Origin: Endomychus coccineus
Taxonomy: Eukaryota; Arthropoda; Insecta; Coleoptera; Endomychidae
DNA length: 64,000 nucleotides
Assembly: GCA_958510875.1 (NCBI GenBank)
Contig: OY294069.1
Location: 166,159,111-166,223,110, forward strand
Direction of reading: 5' to 3'
The position numbers were made by a program, and so were the translations under genes. The notes under the pieces are model-generated. The model was not told where the DNA came from. It saw nothing but the letters and a program-made list of their open reading frames with translations, and did no database searches. Positions 916-53,599 of the stretch are shown piece after piece. Numbering within the stretch: the first letter of the stretch is position 1; each line of letters begins with the position of its first letter.

Positions 916-29817
<28,902 letters not shown>

Positions 29818-37879: not shown

Positions 37880-38302
37880 TTGATGCCGACGTTTCGCCAA
37901 CCATTACAGGTGGCATCTTCAGGGCAGGCTTGAGGCTTGAACTGAAACTGGTTCTACTGGTTTCTGTAGCCGTATTTATTGTAGGAAAAATCCTTCACGC
38001 TACATAGTTCACTGCCTTTGTTCCGGTGGTTAACTTCGTTCCGGCACCTGACCCTGCCGTTGTGCGATCATGTGCGGAGTTGAATTTTCGAGGATGGGTT
38101 TCCAAATGTTGGGAAGGTAATATCCTGAGTCACGGTTCAGATTATTCGGATGTTTTAGGATTTCTATAGCTTCAAGGATTTTTCGCTGGTAGAAGTTTGG
38201 GGCTCGGACTAGGATTTTAGTATCTTCAAAAAGGATTTGATGATTTGTGTTAAACTTGTGTTCCGCAGTTCCCCTAAGTTCCCTCAGTTCCCCTAAGACC
38301 AA
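37880..38302 (-). mobile_element. Penelope-like element 3' end (GIY-YIG tail and terminal hairpin)
   Basis: Minus 38030-38302 reads LRGTAEHKFNTNHQILFEDT, KILVRAPNFYQRKILEAIEI and KHPNNLNRDSGYYLPNIWKP, the C-terminal part of the GIY-YIG endonuclease domain of Penelope elements. Downstream at 37882-37922 lies a hairpin ending gaaacgtcggc. Confidence 0.88.
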
Positions 38303-39045
38303 TTGTCAGCACTATCGGATCTCCTACTTATAAACTCTCTCGATACCTGTCATCTATTCTCAAACCCCTTGTACGTGAATCCAATAGTTTTATCCTAAAT
38401 TCCTTTCATTTCGTTGAATAACTTCAAACGTTGAAAGTTGACCCATGCGATTTGCTCGTCAGCTTCGACGTTGAATCACTGTTTACCAATGTTCCCATTC
38501 CAGACACCCTTTCCATAATTTCTCAATTGTTACCTGCCAAAAACATTTCAACGGACTTGCTACCGTTAATTGATTTTTGTCTATCCTCCACATATTTTCT
38601 ATACGATGGCAAGTTCTACGAGCAGTCCTCGGGAGCTGCCATGGGTTCCCCACTTTCCCCGATCATAGCTAATATCTTCATGGAAGCTTTTGAACAAGAT
38701 GCCATTGACTCATCTGTTCTCAAGCCGAAATGTTGGTTTAGATATGTCGACGATACTTTCGTTATTTGGCAACATGGTCGCGAAAAGCTTGTTCCCTTCC
38801 TCAATCATTTAAATTCATTACATCCCAATATCCGTTTCACCATGGAAGTCGAATCGCAAGGTTCACTCCCGTTCCTGGATGTATTGGTTAGTCGACAGAC
38901 TGACGGTACTTTAGGACATTCTGTGTATCGGAAACCCACCCATACCGATAGATACCTCAATGGTCTTTCCCACCACCACCCTGCCCAAAAGCAATCTGTC
39001 ATAAACTCCCTGGTCCACAGAGTCTTTTATTGGAAACAACTATAA
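38303..39045 (+). mobile_element. Penelope-like reverse transcriptase fragment, opposite orientation
   Basis: It begins within IVSTIGSPTYKLSRYLSSIL; the 38431-39045 open frame (204 codons) then gives DLLVSFDVESLFTNVPI, SSGAAMGSPLSPIIANIFM, CWFRYVDDTFVIW (catalytic YVDD) and GSLPFLDVLVSRQTDG. These are RT motifs of Penelope. The frame is uninterrupted, suggesting a fairly young copy. It stops at VFYWKQL, and the GIY-YIG part does not follow but lies inverted on the other side of 38302/38303. Confidence 0.92.
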
Positions 39046-40800: not shown

Positions 40801-42035
40801 AAGGAGGTTCGGTAGTGTTAGCGGCAGTGGCGTATAATAAAAAAAATAAAAACGTGTGGCACTCGGGGACTGCCGCGGTGAAGCTAGCATAGCATTTTTT
40901 CTCAACTTATGCAATTATAATTATTTATTTATTTTTAATTTAAGCAGTATTTTTTTTTCTTTGATATTAATTCAAGTTTTTTCTTTGATATTAATTCAAG
41001 TTACACTTTTTGAGCGTGGTGACCGATAAAAAAACAATTTTTTTTCTTTTATTGAATAAATGAGAAGTTAATATCGTTTAAAATATTTTAATTATCTTAC
41101 AATACATGTGGGTTATTCAGGAATTTGTTATCATTGAAACTATAGGTTTATGGTAACTGAAATAAGAGACATAAGTTTGAGACTTGATATCCTCTAAATA
41201 TCTGGTAAATACCGCGTCAATGGTGGCCCCATATTTTGTTGTGGATTCTTGTGGATCATTATTCATTTTCAAATTCAATTTTTCCGAAAGAAAAGTTGTC
41301 AACCGCTCTGATTTTTTATCAGCGAAGTTGATGTTGAAATCGCCAGCCAAGATAAGTGGAAATTTATTACCATTTGTACCAAGTATTTTCGACCCTTCTT
41401 CAGTGTACTCCAGTAAAGTGCGATGAATAAAATGCTCTACCTCGTCCAATTTTGGATTCGGAGAAATGTTAATTGCTACCATGACTATGTGTAGGCCATT
41501 TCTAAGTTTGCATAAGCACGCACAAATATCTCCAAAAAATGAGCGCCTAACATTAACATCGCTAACGTGGGCAATATTTATTTCAATATTCGGAGTCATA
41601 ATATTAGTTACATTATTATTATTTTGGTAAATAGCTACCCCACCTTTTGGAACAGTATCTCGTTTGAATTGAACAATACAATTGAAATTAGGTATTTCAA
41701 TCGGATTATCATGCGCCATGCAAGATTCGGTAAGAAGTAACACATTTGTTTGTCTCGTAACTGAATCTTGTAAATCGTATTTGTGACTATTTAGACTTTG
41801 GCAATTGAAAGTCATTATTGAAATGCCATTTCTATTACTAAGGAAATCTAAGACACTTTGAGCTGTCGTCTGAACACTATTTAAAGGCAGTCTTTTGATT
41901 TCTTGCAACAAAGATGCAGTCGATGCAGCTTGCCTTCGATTATTATAAAACTTGAATCTAGAATTATCGTTTTTTGTCGTGATATACAATTTTTCAATAT
42001 TAGTCACCCGAGAGAGCGCAACATAAACGAGTTCC
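40801..42035 (-). mobile_element. Helentron 3' part: Pif1 helicase end plus EEP endonuclease
   Basis: From 42035 the minus strand reads QELVYVALSRVTNIEKLYIT, helicase motif VI of Helitron Rep/Hel proteins, then directly a C-terminal endonuclease/exonuclease/phosphatase domain (41117-42007): IMTFNCQSLNSH, VLLLTESC, LILAGDFNINF, GATIDAVFTR, YFSYHKPIVS. This fusion defines Helentrons. The last motif, normally SDHxP, has Tyr for Asp, so the nuclease is probably inactive although the 296-codon frame is open. Sequence 40830-40900 (cggggactgccgcggtgaagc) probably belongs to the element's terminal non-coding part. Confidence 0.88.
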
Positions 42036-42039
42036 TGTT

Positions 42040-42512
42040 ATTTTTCGTTACGGAATTTCTTGATTCGGTTGCCGCGCTCAAAGCCCGCGATAAAAGCTAT
42101 ATGCAATATATGCAATAGCTTAATAGAAACAGGTACTCTCAGGTCTCTGCTACGCGCGTCTAACGTATAAACTCTAACTGACGCGTAGCGAGCTCCTAGT
42201 AAGAGGCATATGTCAAAATGATTTCGTTCGTAGCTAATTACATAGGACGTCTGGAGTTCGTGCAATTGTTTTTAGATAATTCGAACCTTCTTATTTCGAT
42301 AGGCCACGTGAAAATCCCGGAGTCTAAAGCGCTAGAGTGTTATAACATTCGTATAAAATAGCGAAATTTCTCACATTTAGAAACTTCAAATTAATTAATT
42401 AATTTGACACATGTTAGGTGTTTAGGTCTTACATTATTTTTCGTTACGGAATTTCTTGATTCGGTCGCCGCGCCCAAAGCCCGCGATAAAAGCTGTATGC
42501 AATAGCTTAATA
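42040..42512. repeat. ~75-bp direct repeat flanking a Helentron-associated spacer
   Basis: ttcgttacggaatttcttga and the following ccgcg-cccgcgataaaagct stretch occur at 42045-42118 and again at 42438-42511. The 320 bp between them share sequence with the interior of the 27959-28910 element. Confidence 0.75.
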
Positions 42513-42555
42513 CACTATTAATTTCAAAGAGGCACATTTTAATTTCTAATTTACT

Positions 42556-42635
42556 TTACTCTGATGATGGCTACTTGGTGGCTGAAAAGTCCTCAGTACT
42601 TTAACAGTATTTTTAGTGGATAAGGGTGATTATTT
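42556..42635 (+). repeat. Penelope-type terminal hairpin followed by array-unit sequence
   Basis: ctgatgatggctacttggt then ggctgaaaagtcctcag forms a hairpin with flanking CTGATGA and GAAA, followed at ~42606 by tttaacagtatttttagtgg and ataagggtgattattta, the start of the 72-bp array unit, here in single copy. Confidence 0.7.
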
Positions 42636-42637
42636 AT

Positions 42638-42785
42638 AGAATTACTTTGTTTTCATACCACTTTTAATAATAACATGAGAATGTTACTGCAGTTTCAACA
42701 GCGAAGTGTCATTATGAAACAGATATCTCTTTTTCAAGTTATTATTAAAAGTGGTAATAAACAAAGTAATTGTTCTTTCATTTAA
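42638..42785. repeat. small palindrome (~36-bp arms)
   Basis: gaattactttgttttcatacc-acttttaataataac is mirrored by gttattattaaaagtggtaa-taaacaaagtaattg around a ~70-bp loop. Confidence 0.75.
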
Positions 42786-43925: not shown

Positions 43926-44872
43926 TTCGTTGCCGACGTTTCGACTTTTATAAAGTCAAACTTCAAGGTACTACAATAAGGATTATGATTACTACTGGTT
44001 TTGATAAATAAAAACAAAGAAGGGTGGCAAAATGAGGTTGGGAATTAAATGATGAAAAATACATTGAGGTTAATAAAATACATGTAAATTTATATTATAA
44101 ATAGTTCAACTCACTGACACGTATTAAAATGGATGAAAATTTAAAAGTGACTATAGAAAATAACAGGTTACTTACAATACCAATGGGTTTTTTGTGGTGA
44201 AAGCATTTAAATAAGTACGGACATTTACATATAAACTTGAATATTTGTATATTCACTATTCAGAAGTTAATATTTGTCTACTACGAAGAGAGAGTTTGTA
44301 TTCGAATGAAGTTATTCCATGGAGATTGAAAGGATTTTCTTTTTATTGGTTGATTCGTGATTTCTTATATATTCATGTCAACGTAACGTGTGATCAAAGG
44401 CGTACTGGATTTGTTGTTATCTTGCTATTAAATGACTTATTAAAAAATAGTAAGAATTAAATAAAAATTGGGTATCTGTTTTTATATTAAAATCACTTTC
44501 ATATGTTTTTATATTTATCATCTCTTGCATAATTATTTGTTGATAGTTGTGTTGTTTTCCTACAATTTTAGTATTTTCAAAATCAAGTTTGTGTAAATTT
44601 TTGTTTGTATATTCTGCAAGACCTGTTTTATTTGTAGTTTCTATAATGTTTTCGATTGTTTTGATTTTAACGTGGTGAAATACTTTTTAACGGTGTTTTT
44701 ATTTTTGAAAGCAATATTGAAGGGCACATCCGTAAATATCTTCAGTAACATTCTTAGGAAAAATCTGTTTTCTCTTGGTTCATTGAAAAGGAGTTTGTTA
44801 GTTAATTTTGTAGGGTAATTGTTTTTTAAAAGATATTTTTTGATTGTTTTAAGATTTTTTTGGTGGGATCAA
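43926..44872 (-). mobile_element. Penelope-like element C-terminal part
   Basis: Reverse strand 44680-44872 gives LKTIKKYLLKNNYPTKL and DVPFNIAFKNKNTVKKYF (linker after the RT). 44450-44620 gives TGLAEYTNKNLHKLDFENTK and NYQQIIMQEMINIKTYESDF, the GIY-YIG C-terminal region. The terminal hairpin with gaaacgtcggc is at 43931-43968. The RT domain that should lie to the right is absent; the tandem array starts ~50 bp away. Confidence 0.8.
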
Positions 44873-44924
44873 TGTAGGGCCCTATATTTAAAATAATGTT
44901 AGTTTTTTGAGTAGTCGGAAAGCT

Positions 44925-47900
44925 TTAACAGTAGTTTTAGTGGATAAGGGTGATTATTTCTTATTTACAGTGTATCCACAGTGTGAACTTAGTGATTTAA
45001 CAGTACTTTTAGTGGATAAGGGTGATTATTTCTTATTTACAGTGTATCCACAGTGTGAACTTAGTGATTTAACAGTACTTTTAGTGGATAAGGGTGATTA
45101 TTTCTTATTTACAGTGTATCCACAGTGTGAACTTAGTGATTTAACAGTACTTTTAGTGGATAAGGGTGATTATTTCTTATTGATAGTGTATCCACAGTGT
45201 GAACTCGCTACTTTCACAGTACTTTTAGTGGATAAGGGTGTTTATTTCTTATTTACAGTGTATCCACAGTGTGAACTTAGTGATTTAACAGTACTTTTAG
45301 TGGATAAGGGTGATTATTTCTTATTGATAGTGTATCCACAGTGTGAACTCGCTACTTTCACAGTACTTTTAGTGGATAAGGGTGTTTATTTCTTATTTAC
45401 AGTGTATCCACAGTGTGAACTTAGTGATTTAACAGTACTTTTAGTGGATAAGGGTGATTATTTCTTATTGATAGTGTATCCACAGTGTGAACTCGCTACT
45501 TTCACAGTACTTTTAGTGGATAAGGGTGATTATTTCTTATTGATAGTGTATCCACAGTGTGAACTCGCTACTTTCACAGTACTTTTAGTGGATAAGGGTG
45601 TTTATTTCTTATTTACAGTGTATCCACAGTGTGAACTTAGTGATTTAACAGTACTTTTAGTGGATAAGGGTGATTATTTCTTATTGATAGTGTATCCACA
45701 GTGTGAACTCGCTACTTTCACAGTACTTTTAGTGGATAAGGGTGATTATTTCTTATTTACAGTGTATCCACAGTGTGAACTTAGTGATTTAACAGTACTT
45801 TTAGTGGATAAGGGTGATTATTTCTTATTGATAGTGTATCCACAGTGTGAACTCGCTACTTTCACAGTACTTTTAGTGGATAAGGGTGTTTATTTCTTAT
45901 TTACAGTGTATCCACAGTGTGAACTTAGTGATTTAACAGTACTTTTAGTGGATAAGGGTGATTATTTCTTATTGATAGTGTATCCACAGTGTGAACTCGC
46001 TACTTTCACAGTACTTTTAGTGGATAAGGGTGATTATTTCTTATTGATAGTGTATCCACAGTGTGAACTCGCTACTTTCACAGTACTTTTAGTGGATAAG
46101 GGTGTTTATTTCTTATTTACAGTGTATCCACAGTGTGAACTTAGTGATTTAACAGTACTTTTAGTGGATAAGGGTGATTATTTCTTATTGATAGTGTATC
46201 CACAGTGTGAACTCGCTACTTTCACAGTACTTTTAGTGGATAAGGGTGTTTATTTCTTATTTACAGTGTATCCACAGTGTGAACTTAGTGATTTAACAGT
46301 ACTTTTAGTGGATAAGGGTGATTATTTCTTATTGATAGTGTATCCACAGTGTGAACTCGCTACTTTCACAGTACTTTTAGTGGATAAGGGTGTTTATTTC
46401 TTATTTACAGTGTATCCACAGTGTGAACTTAGTGATTTAACAGTACTTTTAGTGGATAAGGGTGATTATTTCTCATTTATAGTGTATCCACAGTGTGAAC
46501 TCGCTACTTTCACAGTACTTTTAGTGGATAAGGGTGTTTATTTCTTATTTACAGTGTATCCACAGTGTGAACTTAGTGATTTAACAGTACTTTTAGTGGA
46601 TAAGGGTGATTATTTCTCATTTATAGTGTATCCACAGTGTGAACTCGCTACTTTCACAGTACTTTTAGTGGATAAGGGTGTTTATTTCTTATTTATAGTG
46701 TATCCACAGTGTGAACTCGCTACTTTCACAGTACTTTTAGTGGATAAGGGTGTTTATTTCTTATTTACAGTGTATCCACAGTGTGAACTTAGTGATTTAA
46801 CAGTACTTTTAGTGGATAAGGGTGATTATTTCTTATTTATAGTGTATCCACAGTGTGAACTCAGTAGTTTAACAGTAGTTTTAGTGGATGAGGGTGATTA
46901 TTTCTCATTTATAGTGTATCCACAGTGTGAACTCGCTACTTTCACAGTACTTTTAGTGGATAAGGGTGTTTATTTCTTATTTGCAGTGAATCACAGTATG
47001 AACTAGGTATTTTAACAGTACTTTTAGTGGATACGGGTGATTATTTCTTATTTATAGTGTATCCACAGTGTGAACTTAGTGATTTAATAGTAGTGGATAA
47101 GGGTGATTATTTCTTATTTATAGTGTATCCATAGTGTGTTCACACTACTTTAACAGTACTTTTAGTGGATAAGGGTGATTATTTCTCATTTATAGTGTAT
47201 CCACAGTGTGAACTCGGTACTTTCACAGTACTTTTAGTGGATAAGGGTGTTTATTTCTTATTTACAGGGAATCCACACAAACTAGGTATTTTAACAGTAC
47301 TTTTAGTGGATACAGGTGATTATTTCTTATTTATAGTGTATCCATAGTGTGTTCACACTACTTTAACAGTACTTTTAGAGGATAAGGGTGATTATTTCTC
47401 ATTTATAGTGTACCCACAGTGTGAACTTAGTGATTTAACAGTACTTTTAGTGGATAAGGGTGATTATTTCTTATTTATAGTGTATCCACAGTGTGAACTC
47501 AGTAGTTTAACAGTAGTTTTAGTGGATGAGGGTGATTATTTCTCATTTATAGTGTATCCACAGTGTGAACTCGCTACTTTCACAGTACTTTTAGTGGATA
47601 AGGGTGTTTATTTCTTATTTACAGTGAATCACAGTATGAACTAGGTATTTTAACAGTACTTTTAGTGGATACGGGTGATTATTTCTTATTTATAGTGTAT
47701 CCACAGTGTGAACTTAGTGATTTAATAGTAGTGGATAAGGGTGATTATTTCTTATTTATAGTGTATCCATAGTGTGTTCACACTACTTTAACAGTACTTT
47801 TAGTGGATAAGGGTGATTATTTCTCATTTATAGTGTATCCACAGTGTGAACTCGGTACTTTCACAGTACTTTTAGTGGATAAGGGTGTTTATTTCTTATT

Positions 47901-50900
47901 TACAGGGAATCCACACAAACTAGGTATTTTAACAGTACTTTTAGTGGATACAGGTGATTATTTCTTATTTATAGTGTATCCATAGTGTGTTCACACTACT
48001 TTAACAGTACTTTTAGAGGATAAGGGTGATTATTTCTCATTTATAGTGTACCCACAGTGTGAACTTAGTGATTTAACAGTACTTTTAGTGGATAAGGGTG
48101 ATTATTTCTCATTTATAGTGTATCCACAGTGTGAACTCGCTACTTTCACAGTACTTTTAGTGGATAAGGGTGTTTATTTCTTATTTACAGTGAATCACAG
48201 TATGAACTAGGTATTTTAACAGTACTTTTAGTGGATACGGGTGATTATTTCTTATTTATAGTGTATCCACAGTGTGAACTTAGTGATTTAATAGTAGTGG
48301 ATAAGGGTGATTATTTCTTATTTATAGTGTATCCATAGTGTGTTCACACTACTTTAACAGTACTTTTAGTGGATAAGGGTGATTATTTCTCATTTATAGT
48401 GTATCCACAGTGTGAACTCGGTACTTTCACAGTACTTTTAGTGGATAAGGGTGTTTATTTCTTATTTACAGGGAATCCACACAAACTAGGTATTTTAACA
48501 GTACTTTTAGTGGATACAGGTGATTATTTCTTATTTATAGTGTATCCATAGTGTGTTCACACTACTTTAACAGTACTTTTAGAGGATAAGGGTGATTATT
48601 TCTCATTTATAGTGTACCCACAGTGTGAACTTAGTGATTTAACAGTACTTTTAGTGGATAAGGGTGATTATTTCTTATTTATAGTGTATCCACAGTGTGA
48701 ACTCAGTAGTTTAACAGTAGTTTTAGTGGATGAGGGTGATTATTTCTCATTTATAGTGTATCCACAGTGTGAACTCGCTACTTTCACAGTACTTTTAGTG
48801 GATAAGGGTGTTTATTTCTTATTTACAGTGAATCACAGTATGAACTAGGTATTTTAACAGTACTTTTAGTGGATACGGGTGATTATTTCTTATTTATAGT
48901 GTATCCACAGTGTGAACTTAGTGATTTAATAGTAGTGGATAAGGGTGATTATTTCTTATTTATAGTGTATCCATAGTGTGTTCACACTACTTTAACAGTA
49001 CTTTTAGTGGATAAGGGTGATTATTTCTCATTTATAGTGTATCCACAGTGTGAACTCGGTACTTTCACAGTACTTTTAGTGGATAAGGGTGTTTATTTCT
49101 TATTTACAGGGAATCCACACAAACTAGGTATTTTAACAGTACTTTTAGTGGATACAGGTGATTATTTCTTATTTATAGTGTATCCATAGTGTGTTCACAC
49201 TACTTTAACAGTACTTTTAGAGGATAAGGGTGATTATTTCTCATTTATAGTGTACCCACAGTGTGAACTTAGTGATTTAACAGTACTTTTAGTGGATAAG
49301 GGTGATTATTTCTCATTTATAGTGTATCCACAGTGTGAACTCGCTACTTTCACAGTACTTTTAGTGGATAAGGGTGTTTATTTCTTATTTACAGTGAATC
49401 ACAGTATGAACTAGGTATTTTAACAGTACTTTTAGTGGATACGGGTGATTATTTCTTATTTATAGTGTATCCACAGTGTGAACTTAGTGATTTAATAGTA
49501 GTGGATAAGGGTGATTATTTCTTATTTATAGTGTATCCATAGTGTGTTCACACTACTTTAACAGTACTTTTAGTGGATAAGGGTGATTATTTCTCATTTA
49601 TAGTGTATCCACAGTGTGAACTCGGTACTTTCACAGTACTTTTAGTGGATAAGGGTGTTTATTTCTTATTTACAGGGAATCCACACAAACTAGGTATTTT
49701 AACAGTACTTTTAGTGGATACAGGTGATTATTTCTTATTTATAGTGTATCCATAGTGTGTTCACACTACTTTAACAGTACTTTTAGAGGATAAGGGTGAT
49801 TATTTCTCATTTATAGTGTACCCACAGTGTGAACTTAGTGATTTAACAGTACTTTTAGTGGATAAGGGTGATTATTTCTTATTTATAGTGTATCCACAGT
49901 GTGAACTCAGTAGTTTAACAGTAGTTTTAGTGGATGAGGGTGATTATTTCTCATTTATAGTGTATCCACAGTGTGAACTCGCTACTTTCACAGTACTTTT
50001 AGTGGATAAGGGTGTTTATTTCTTATTTACAGTGAATCACAGTATGAACTAGGTATTTTAACAGTACTTTTAGTGGATACGGGTGATTATTTCTTATTTA
50101 TAGTGTATCCACAGTGTGAACTTAGTGATTTAATAGTAGTGGATAAGGGTGATTATTTCTTATTTATAGTGTATCCATAGTGTGTTCACACTACTTTAAC
50201 AGTACTTTTAGTGGATAAGGGTGATTATTTCTCATTTATAGTGTATCCACAGTGTGAACTCGGTACTTTCACAGTACTTTTAGTGGATAAGGGTGTTTAT
50301 TTCTTATTTACAGGGAATCCACACAAACTAGGTATTTTAACAGTACTTTTAGTGGATACAGGTGATTATTTCTTATTTATAGTGTATCCATAGTGTGTTC
50401 ACACTACTTTAACAGTACTTTTAGAGGATAAGGGTGATTATTTCTCATTTATAGTGTACCCACAGTGTGAACTTAGTGATTTAACAGTACTTTTAGTGGA
50501 TAAGGGTGATTAGTTCTTATTTATAGTGTAGGTATCCATAGTGTGTTCACACTACTTTAACAGTATTTCTAGTGGATAAGGGTGATTATTTCTCATTTAT
50601 AGTGTATCCACAGTGTGAACTCGGTACTTTCACAGTACTTTTAGTGGATAAGGGTGTTTATTTCTTATTTACAGGGAATCCACACAAACTAGGTATTTTA
50701 ACAGTACTTTTAGTGGATACAGGTGATTATTTCTTATTTATAGTGTATCCATAGTGTGTTCACACTACTTTAACAGTACTTTTAGAGGATAAGGGTGATT
50801 ATTTCTCATTTATAGTGTACCCACAGTGTGAACTTAGTGATTTAACAGTACTTTTAGTGGATAAGGGTGATTATTTCTTATTTATAGTGTAGGTATCCAT

Positions 50901-52262
50901 AGTGTGTTCACACTACTTTAACAGTATTTCTAGTGGATAAGGGTGATTATTTCTCATTTATAGTGTATCCACAGTGTGAACTCGGTACTTTCACAGTACT
51001 TTTAGTGGATAAGGGTGTTTATTTCTTATTTACAGGGAATCCACACAAACTAGGTATTTTAACAGTACTTTTAGTGGATACAGGTGATTATTTCTTATTT
51101 ATAGTGTATCCATAGTGTGTTCACACTACTTTAACAGTACTTTTAGTGGATAAGGGTGATTATTTCTCATTTATAGTGTATCCACAGTGTGAACTCGGTA
51201 CTTTCACAGTACTTTTAGTGGATAAGGGTGTTTATTTCTTATTTACAGGGAATCCACACAAACTAGGTATTTTAACAGTACTTTTAGTGGATACAGGTGA
51301 TTATTTCTTATTTATAGTGTATCCATAGTGTGTTCACACTACTTTAACAGTACTTTTAGAGGATAAGGGTGATTATTTCTCATTTATAGTGTACCCACAG
51401 TGTGAACTTAGTGATTTAACAGTACTTTTAGTGGATAAGGGTGATTATTTCTTATTTATAGTGTATCCACAGTGTGAACTCAGTAGTTTAACAGTAGTTT
51501 TAGTGGATGAGGGTGATTATTTCTCATTTATAGTGTATCCACAGTGTGAACTCGCTACTTTCACAGTACTTTTAGTGGATAAGGGTGTTTATTTCTTATT
51601 TACAGTGAATCACAGTATGAACTAGGTATTTTAACAGTACTTTTAGTGGATACGGGTGATTATTTCTTATTTATAGTGTATCCACAGTGTGAACTTAGTG
51701 ATTTAATAGTAGTGGATAAGGGTGATTATTTCTTATTTATAGTGTATCCATAGTGTGTTCACACTACTTTAACAGTACTTTTAGTGGATAAGGGTGATTA
51801 TTTCTCATTTATAGTGTATCCACAGTGTGAACTCGGTACTTTCACAGTACTTTTAGTGGATAAGGGTGTTTATTTCTTATTTACAGGGAATCCACACAAA
51901 CTAGGTATTTTAACAGTACTTTTAGTGGATACAGGTGATTATTTCTTATTTATAGTGTATCCATAGTGTGTTCACACTACTTTAACAGTACTTTTAGAGG
52001 ATAAGGGTGATTATTTCTCATTTATAGTGTACCCACAGTGTGAACTCAGTAGTTTAACAGTAGTTTTAGTGGATGAGGGTGATTATTTCTCATTTATAGT
52101 GTATCCACAGTGTGAACTCGCTACTTTCACAGTACTTTTAGTGGATAAGGGTGTTTATTTCTTATTTACAGTGAATCCACACAAACTAGGTATTTTAACA
52201 GTACTTTTAGTGGATACGGGTGATTATTTCTTATTTATAGTGTATCCACAGTGTGAAGTCTC
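44925..52262 (+). repeat. 7.3-kb tandem array of a 72-bp unit with higher-order structure
   Basis: The unit runs acagtacttttagtggataa, gggtgattatttcttattta, cagtgtatccacagtgtgaa, cttagtgattta (72 bp). About 29 units in 44925-46990 keep exact 72-bp spacing and alternate as 144-bp dimers. From 46990 on, units of 65-74 bp form larger repeats: a marker phrase recurs at 47165, 47803, 48369, 49007, 49573, 50211, 50572, 50933, 51146 and 51784 (steps 638, 566, 638, 566, 638, 361, 361, 213, 638). Each unit carries the inverted pair gtggata/tatccac. Because 72 is divisible by three, a 699-codon frame (44907-47006) of 24-residue repeats is open; I do not treat it as a protein. Confidence 0.97.
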
Positions 52263-53599
52263 ATAGTTTACCAGTACACTAAGCATGTCAACCCCTAATA
52301 CATCACGAGAGACTATTATTGAGGGTAATACGATTGGGAAAATTGCACTATGCACTTGGCATTTTGCTGGTTGATAATTTTGGTCCCAATTCACAGCGAG
52401 TACAAATAGATAGTATAACGTAAAATATGAAGTATAACCAACAAATAATTCTTATCTACTCTTATTCAAATAAATGTCTAGTGTTTGACTAGCTAGATTT
52501 ATAATATTTGTAGTTTCCCTAATATATTGTGGAGAGTAAAACAATAAAGTAAGTATATGATGTAATAAAGGAAATTTTATCGTCTAGTCTACAGTCTCTT
52601 CCTTCGCTTTATGGTACTTATATATTATATGAATGATTAAATTTATTCACAAGAAATACAGTAACATTGTCATAAATTGAATAATAAAATAAAATTCACT
52701 TTAATTTTCAATGTCATGTTACTTCTACATTTTTATTATTCTTCATTATTTATTCCATGATTACAGAACATTATTAAAACTTCTTCTGATCATATTGCAC
52801 AATCCTTAATTGATCTTCACTATTTGTGCTCAAAGAATATATTTTCACTAGAAATACATGAAGAATTTTGGGCGTGACAACTTCAGCATTATAAAATTCA
52901 ATAAACGCCAAGTGAAAAGGTATTACTCAGGAATAGAGTAGCAGAAACATAAATACCTGTAAACGCAACTGAAAAAAGAGATCAGTTACCTAATAAAATA
53001 CAAAAATTACTCCATTAATTTTAAGCGCTACGACTCGATAACTGTCACAATATAGTTAAATTGATCTTAATAATATCATAAGAACTTTCAAAACACTACG
53101 GTACTTACAGCAAAATATTCAGGTTTTTCAATAATTCTTAATAGGTTTGCACTATATTTCATATTTATTAATACCAAACAAACGCAAGCAGTAAGAAAAG
53201 ATAGAGCGACACTACTTAAATTCTTGAATGTAACAGAAATTGAATCTAAGAAGTTATCAGGGCTCCCCTACCTGAATGCCAGCTGTCAATGCCTTGATTT
53301 TTAATATCCGTTTCTAGGAATTCTTTGAGACTAACACTCTACCTGGCGTCAGTATTCGAAATATGTGACCCTTCGGGTTTTACCGTAATTACACCTTCGC
53401 TATCTGATCAATTACAGGCACAATGAGGTAGCTGAAATTTATTTTAAACGTTATCACAATCTATGGTTTCGGCGTTTACGTGTAGTCTAAAATCATTTTA
53501 ACTTTCGGAAGTTGAAGGATTAAACTCGAATTTACAAATCTAAATTTAATTCTCGAGCTCCCGAAAATTTATATCACAAGTTTAACATGTACAGGCTGG
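52263..53599. other. no recognised content
   Basis: AT-rich sequence after the array, with no repeat or frame of note. Confidence 0.5.

Follow-up and report, generated by a model that had tools for sequence, protein, structure and literature searches.

A 72-bp tandem array in the beetle Endomychus coccineus that probably arose by partial duplication of a small inverted-repeat element

A 64,000-nucleotide stretch of the Endomychus coccineus genome (assembly GCA_958510875.1, contig OY294069.1, positions 166,159,111 to 166,223,110; hereafter the window, in which all positions are given) contains a tandem array of a 72-bp unit that probably arose by partial duplication of a small element with terminal inverted repeats. 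We put the probability of this origin at roughly two in three. The monomer is homologous to one half of a single 190-bp element in the same window, and sequence of the inverted repeat of that element recurs in every monomer of the array, which makes the element the likelier source. A second, partial relative of the monomer preserves sequence that the array lacks, and the right edge of the array resembles the outer tip of the element. The features discussed are listed in Table 1.

Tandem Repeats Finder places the array at 44923-52277, with a period of 72 bp and 103.2 copies, in agreement with the original prediction, made from the sequence without database searches, of a 7.3-kb array with a 72-bp unit. 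Wrap-around alignment divides it into 104 segments that represent 25 sequence variants, the first and last segments being partial. Most segments (74 of 104) are 72 bp long, and the lengths of 69 bp (11 segments), 71 bp (7), 66 bp (7) and 76 bp (two) also occur. The mean pairwise difference across the 102 inner segments is 0.11, with a value of 0.066 among 26 left-hand segments versus 0.12 among the 76 others. Within the array there is an exact 1204-bp period corresponding to 17 monomers (46984-50512), and 2325 nt are identical at that shift; this is either a very recent amplification or an assembly loop. Long, head-to-tail and homogenised, with about 103 monomers, 25 variants and a 1204-bp higher-order period, the array has the properties of a satellite. 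Variants seen only once are concentrated at its ends (5/10 among the ten outermost segments; as extreme in 15 of 20000 random placements), which is what unequal exchange predicts; two of these five, however, are the incomplete segments at either end, so the pattern is no more than suggestive.

The single element has arms of 47 nt that are 77% complementary and lie 97 nt apart (29127-29317). It carries no coding frame of at least 150 amino acids, and TA is present at both of its ends, as part of the inverted repeat itself. It is thus a short, non-coding element with terminal inverted repeats, and its length and repeats would fit a miniature inverted-repeat transposable element (MITE). BLAST searches of the window with the array masked related the monomer to two loci. 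The E-value is 3e-13 for the single element and 2e-16 for a third locus, at 42592-42635. A relationship between the array unit and the single element had been part of the original prediction and is confirmed by the first of these matches. No exact matches were found in viral contigs or genome contigs, a result that is of little information given that the collections searched were viral, bacterial and archaeal.

Read on the minus strand, the element starts with its left arm; about 30 nt and a hairpin-GAAA stretch follow, and then come a monomer-like half that includes most of the right arm and the tip CTTTTATAGTTTA. A 26-nt stretch near the end of the monomer, TTTACAGTGTATCCACAGTGTGAACT, agrees with the reversed left arm at 24 of 26 nt. 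The repeated unit had been described as exactly the middle of the element, but this match places it in the right half, with its last 26 nt or so being inner terminal-inverted-repeat sequence. Each monomer therefore joins an internal stretch to inner inverted-repeat sequence, and an arm that is present twice and inverted in the element is present once per unit and in direct orientation in the array. Because the monomer spans both the unique internal stretch and the inverted-repeat arm, the element is more likely to have given rise to the satellite than the reverse. The comparison supports a monomer that derives from a small inverted-repeat element or has an immediate ancestor in common with it, and the most likely source of the array is the family represented at 29128-29317. 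A weak further point for such an origin may be that the first segment, at the left edge, is the nearest to the single element over 42 nt, with 4 mismatches versus 5-10 in the 23 other variants compared.

The third, partial copy holds sequence to the left of the monomer that is lacking in the array, and in this way appears to show what lay left of the monomer. Its homology to the element reaches on the left to about 42536 (nhmmer E 1e-7) and stops at 42635, just before another inverted-repeat element. The part represented by CTGATGATGG is absent from both the single element and the array.

Three sequences can be compared at the point where successive units meet (a slash marks the junction). The third copy reads GTCCTC/AGTACTT, the element arm GTGAACTC/TTTTATAG, and the monomers, as read from their consensus, GTGTGAACTC/AGTACTT; after the junction the third copy and the monomers both continue with AGTACTTTAACAG. 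The 3 nt CTC are common to these sequences at the breakpoint, and, as far as three sequences allow, this would fit a microhomology-mediated tandem duplication. We infer the following order of events. The starting point would have been a small non-autonomous element, at least about 190 bp long and with terminal inverted repeats, of which one part was duplicated in tandem, the duplicated piece extending from the internal AGTACTTTAACAG to the inner right inverted repeat (ending in CAGTGTGAACTC). The first head-to-tail junction probably formed through the 3-nt microhomology CTC. The array could then have grown by unequal exchange or by rolling-circle-type amplification, probably by monomers and dimers at first and lately by 1204-bp blocks.

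The edges of the array were aligned to the element, of which both halves had been claimed to be still attached. On the right, following CAGTGTGAA, the array reads GTCTCATAGTTTA versus GTCTTTTATAGTTTA in the element. Anchored after CAGTGTGAA, this edge extends the element tip with a score of 16, a score matched by only 2 of 10000 other segments (5000 places, both strands), and the element form GTGTGAAGTC occurs once in the array, at this edge. On the left, a free alignment of the element with the 40 nt before the first monomer is not significant: 2614 of 20000 shuffles were as good, and so, among the 40-mers of the window, were 399 of 8005 on one strand and 395 of 8005 on the other. When the flank is anchored beside the monomer, the chance falls to 20/5000, and a short local test gives 151/10000. 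Read as the end of a monomer, the same flank scores 2 at best among seven, versus 13 for the element, and anchored against the third copy it has no match (score 0). A longer flank of 130 nt is ordinary (828 of 1756 random flanks were as good). The left edge may therefore keep a trace of the element, but a marginal one, and at best the array would appear to be attached to element sequence on one side, the right.

Table 1. Positions of the array, its edges and related or neighbouring elements in the window
Feature	Position	Strand	Description
Tandem array	44923-52277	+	72-bp monomer (variants of 66, 69 and 71 bp); last 15 bases form the ambiguous right edge
Higher-order block	46984-50512	+	46984-49308 identical to 48188-50512; monomer order from wrap-around alignment
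Left flank	44883-44922	+	GAGTAGTCGGAAAG; marginal resemblance to the element stretch preceding the monomer
Right edge	52258-52277	+	Element tip GTCTCATAGTTTA; overlaps bases that match the start of another monomer
Single-copy element	29128-29317	-	190 bp, terminal inverted repeats of 47 nt; roughly the right half corresponds to the monomer (minus-strand reading)
Third, partial copy	42536-42635	+	CTGATGATGG, hairpin and GAAA stretch, then CTCAGTACTTTAACAG and about 40 nt of monomer
Unrelated inverted-repeat (MITE-like) element	42640-42771		Starts 4 nt past the end of the third copy; outer arm limits as aligned

Several observations weigh against a partial duplication at this locus. The right-edge bases together with the next six also extend the monomer (CTCAGTAGTTTAACAGTA), with a score of 20 over 19 nt (the best of five distinct monomer continuations) versus 16 for the tip, so that the claimed match on this side is exceeded by that of the monomer itself. 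The left edge is weak, its free alignment and its 130-nt flank being ordinary. Whole-element BLAST and nhmmer searches give no significant left inverted repeat beside the array, and a scan for the first 21 nt of the element with up to 6 edits found nothing better than hits at the 6-edit limit in the 1 kb left of the array (44090 in the expected orientation; 44237, 44355 and 44502 in the opposite one), as is the case for most hits across the window. The idea that the left edge is still attached to its half of the element thus reduces to the marginal anchored similarity. A search for inverted repeats inside each flank separately has no bearing on arms that would flank the array on either side. 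In the monomer CTTTAA is preceded by AGTA, which is missing from the single copy, and for this reason the CTC junction is read from the third copy only. Finally, BLAST and nhmmer recover only two significantly related loci outside the array within the window.

The two readings of the right edge were compared by simulation. Mutated monomers reach the tip score of 16 in 0, 1 and 1 of 3000 trials at three mutation rates, and the two scores together were obtained in 0 of 600 trials, at each of two mutation settings, both for an element tip followed by random DNA and for a monomer followed by random DNA. The best fit, with a score of 25, is a tip that runs into the start of a monomer, this model having been composed post hoc from the sequence already seen. 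The right edge resembles the element, though it can be read as a further truncated monomer. The likelier reading, which we hold only tentatively, is that all duplication steps took place at this one insertion, as the original prediction had it. A ready-made array, from another copy of the element or free-standing, could instead have been brought here by recombination, by excision and reintegration, or by capture, its element-like right edge being carried along or coincidental, which would leave the array flanked by the element at one end only. Such seeding seems rather unlikely, yet it would account for the one-sided attachment and the absence of a detectable left inverted repeat, it is compatible with a truncated monomer at the right edge, and it has a parallel in the one-sided "intermediate" arrays of an oyster satellite, which have been ascribed to recombination or aberrant rolling-circle replication (PMC12628747). 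It is disfavoured by the 2-in-10000 resemblance of the right edge to the element tip and by the marginal element-like character of the left edge (20/5000), where monomer ends score 2 versus 13. The reverse direction, in which the element captured a satellite monomer or both came from a third source, is quite improbable. The monomer region of the single element does have clean limits near one monomer, and in the case of miDNA4 a MITE has been proposed to have captured tandem repeats that already existed (PMC12628747). However, the inverted-repeat-arm sequence of the monomer is also present, inverted, at the other end of the element, so capture would need a second, inverted acquisition.

The type of the source element is a separate question. 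It could be a piece of a Penelope-like retroelement (a pseudo-long terminal repeat (pseudo-LTR) with an inverted tail) and not a DNA transposon, in which case the array would be a satellite derived from sequence immediately 3' of a hammerhead-like motif; we consider this doubtful. The third copy contains CTGATGA, a 7-pair hairpin and GAAA. The window has 1 exact CTGANGA core with a stem of at least 6, whereas 200 mononucleotide shuffles average 0.015 and only 3 of them contain any; with a stem of at least 4 there are 2 versus 0.1 expected. The second of these, at 37922 on the minus strand, sits just downstream of an endonuclease-like frame (38033-38305 minus), which by eye resembles the C-terminal end of a Penelope endonuclease. 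A weakly similar frame (44420-44686 minus; 28%, E 2e-5, a single pair) adjoins the array. Penelope pseudo-LTRs of Adineta vaga measure about 180-220 bp and some are inverted (PMC3846280), and one Penelope-like element of Anolis has been reported to carry a hammerhead (PMC11167929). On the other side, Rfam at relaxed thresholds identified no hammerhead in the single or the third copy, and 64 of 200 shuffles fold as well as the motif RNA (z -0.44). This poor single-strand fold is not decisive, because small Penelope-associated hammerheads reportedly cleave as dimers. With three window frames as the only queries, tblastn detected no Penelope coding piece beside 29128 or 42536, the CTGATGATGG part is missing from the single copy and the array, and a looser scan (one mismatch, stem of 4) yields 12 cores in the window, mostly by chance. 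A functional hammerhead in the third copy is thus unsupported, with no Rfam match and an ordinary fold. Nor does the array qualify as a retrozyme, which would have a type I hammerhead in a 150-450 bp monomer; its monomer is 72 bp long and none of the 12 loosely defined cores lies inside the array. There is next to no chance that the array is coding, as might be suggested by a 704-codon open frame that crosses it (44892-47006, plus strand) and by monomer lengths of 72, 69 and 66 bp, all multiples of three. When repeated, 3094 of 5000 shuffled 72-mers keep at least one of six frames open, so such a frame is expected by chance and this reading was rejected; in addition, the seven 71-bp and two 76-bp monomers disrupt the frame. 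Expansion driven by a hairpin was likewise given no weight, since the DNA hairpin of the monomer has only a slight advantage over shuffles, of which 20 of 200 fold equally well (z -1.29).

Partial duplication of a small inverted-repeat element, the reading we prefer, has known counterparts. Many satellites derived from MITEs and other elements are on record (PMC9659126), as are composite forms of MITE plus array, models based on microhomology, and arrays that the element flanks on one side (PMC12628747). The closest precedent for a monomer derived from an inverted repeat is Tetris/TIR-220 of Drosophila virilis, a foldback element. There, as would be the case here, kb-size arrays have a monomer that comes from the inverted repeats of a non-autonomous element, and in assembly contigs the repeats occur both with element flanks and without them (PMC4079207). 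The Tetris inverted repeats differ in reaching 1,735 bp and in already holding tandem repeats of about 220 bp, and fibre fluorescence in situ hybridization revealed no array of TIR-220 alone (PMC4079207). The present element, by comparison, is 190 bp long with a single monomer-equivalent and a 72-bp monomer, and no short-array intermediates were seen in the window. As described in reviews, Xstir (from the Xmix MITE of Xenopus) and miDNA4 (from a Tc1/mariner MITE of Xenopus tropicalis) are also similar. Both occur as MITE, composite and array forms, with a tandem repeat that comes from inside the MITE or from its terminal inverted repeat, and microhomology has been proposed (PMC9659126, PMC12628747). 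Helitron-associated arrays of Crassostrea gigas have, like ours, the element on one side (PMC12628747), but the present element, unlike those, has inverted repeats.

Satellites of the flea beetle Omophoita octoguttata have partial Penelope matches (PMC11846391). Metazoan retrozymes form tandem repeats, and here a hammerhead-like motif occurs in a dispersed relative; the retrozyme monomers measure 150-450 bp (PMC7229834), whereas ours is 72 bp and has no hammerhead core inside it. A derivation of retrozymes from Penelope-like elements has been suggested (PMC11722881). A more specific proposal, and a long shot, is that the satellite was caught soon after its birth from the end of a hammerhead-bearing, Penelope-type retroelement, in which case a 3-nt microhomology would have linked the inner part of the inverted tail with the sequence just 3' of the hammerhead hairpin, and an early tip-to-monomer junction would survive at the right edge. 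If true, the novelty would lie in a readable birth junction and in the hammerhead link, as satellites with partial Penelope matches have already been published (PMC11846391). In a limited literature search we found no earlier description of a birth junction with a hammerhead link.

The window contains other features. One is a dispersed repeat whose two copies (28600-28824 and 42162-42397) are 79% identical; its distance is about 300 bp from the single element and 140-170 bp in the case of the third copy, but its presence near both is probably coincidental because the relative orientations differ. Two short matches to the monomer lie about 93 bp apart on the plus strand and are possibly a decayed relative. 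One, at 13961-13981 (GTTTAAGTGGATAAGGGTGAT), has an E-value of 0.002 with the monomer and 6e-4 with the left edge and is not listed by nhmmer, and the other, at 13869-13882 (TTTTAGTCGATAAG), is no better than chance (E 3.6). The motif at 37922 on the minus strand, past the endonuclease-like frame, has the form CTGAAGA-hairpin-GAAACGTC. A reverse-transcriptase fragment (PF00078) is encoded in a separate frame (38422-39045) on the plus strand, opposite to that of 38033-38305. The frame at 44420-44686 minus, about 240 bp left of the array and 28% identical to the 38033-38305 frame, is missed by tblastn at E up to 1.

Relatives of a frame at 41120-42037 on the minus strand are annotated as helicases, and the frame matches endonuclease/exonuclease/phosphatase models. 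Among 51 proteins listed, its best match is 96% identical over 75% of the query, and an Aphis craccivora helicase is 82% identical. The frame would be Helentron-like. Just upstream of it, a 71-bp stretch (42038-42108) recurs at 42434-42504 with 96% identity. An exon-like frame at 14509-15012 has 24 related proteins listed. Self-comparison also reveals long near-palindromic or inverted repeats at 6235-6841, 1455-1859 and 4577-5842, as found in large foldback or MITE insertions.

The present array is a new local example of a process that is already well documented, the derivation of satellites from miniature elements. It had been presented as direct evidence that a satellite was born from a transposon; the homology of monomer and element upholds this in part, while evidence of this kind was already known from the reports cited above (PMC4079207, PMC9659126, PMC12628747). 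Given that the general route is documented, its value is that of a clean worked example and not of a new principle. Satellites do not usually preserve signs of how they began. In this case a stretch of 25 kb holds the monomer, two of its dispersed relatives and what may be the first junction, and the steps from mobile element to homogenised array can be traced base by base.

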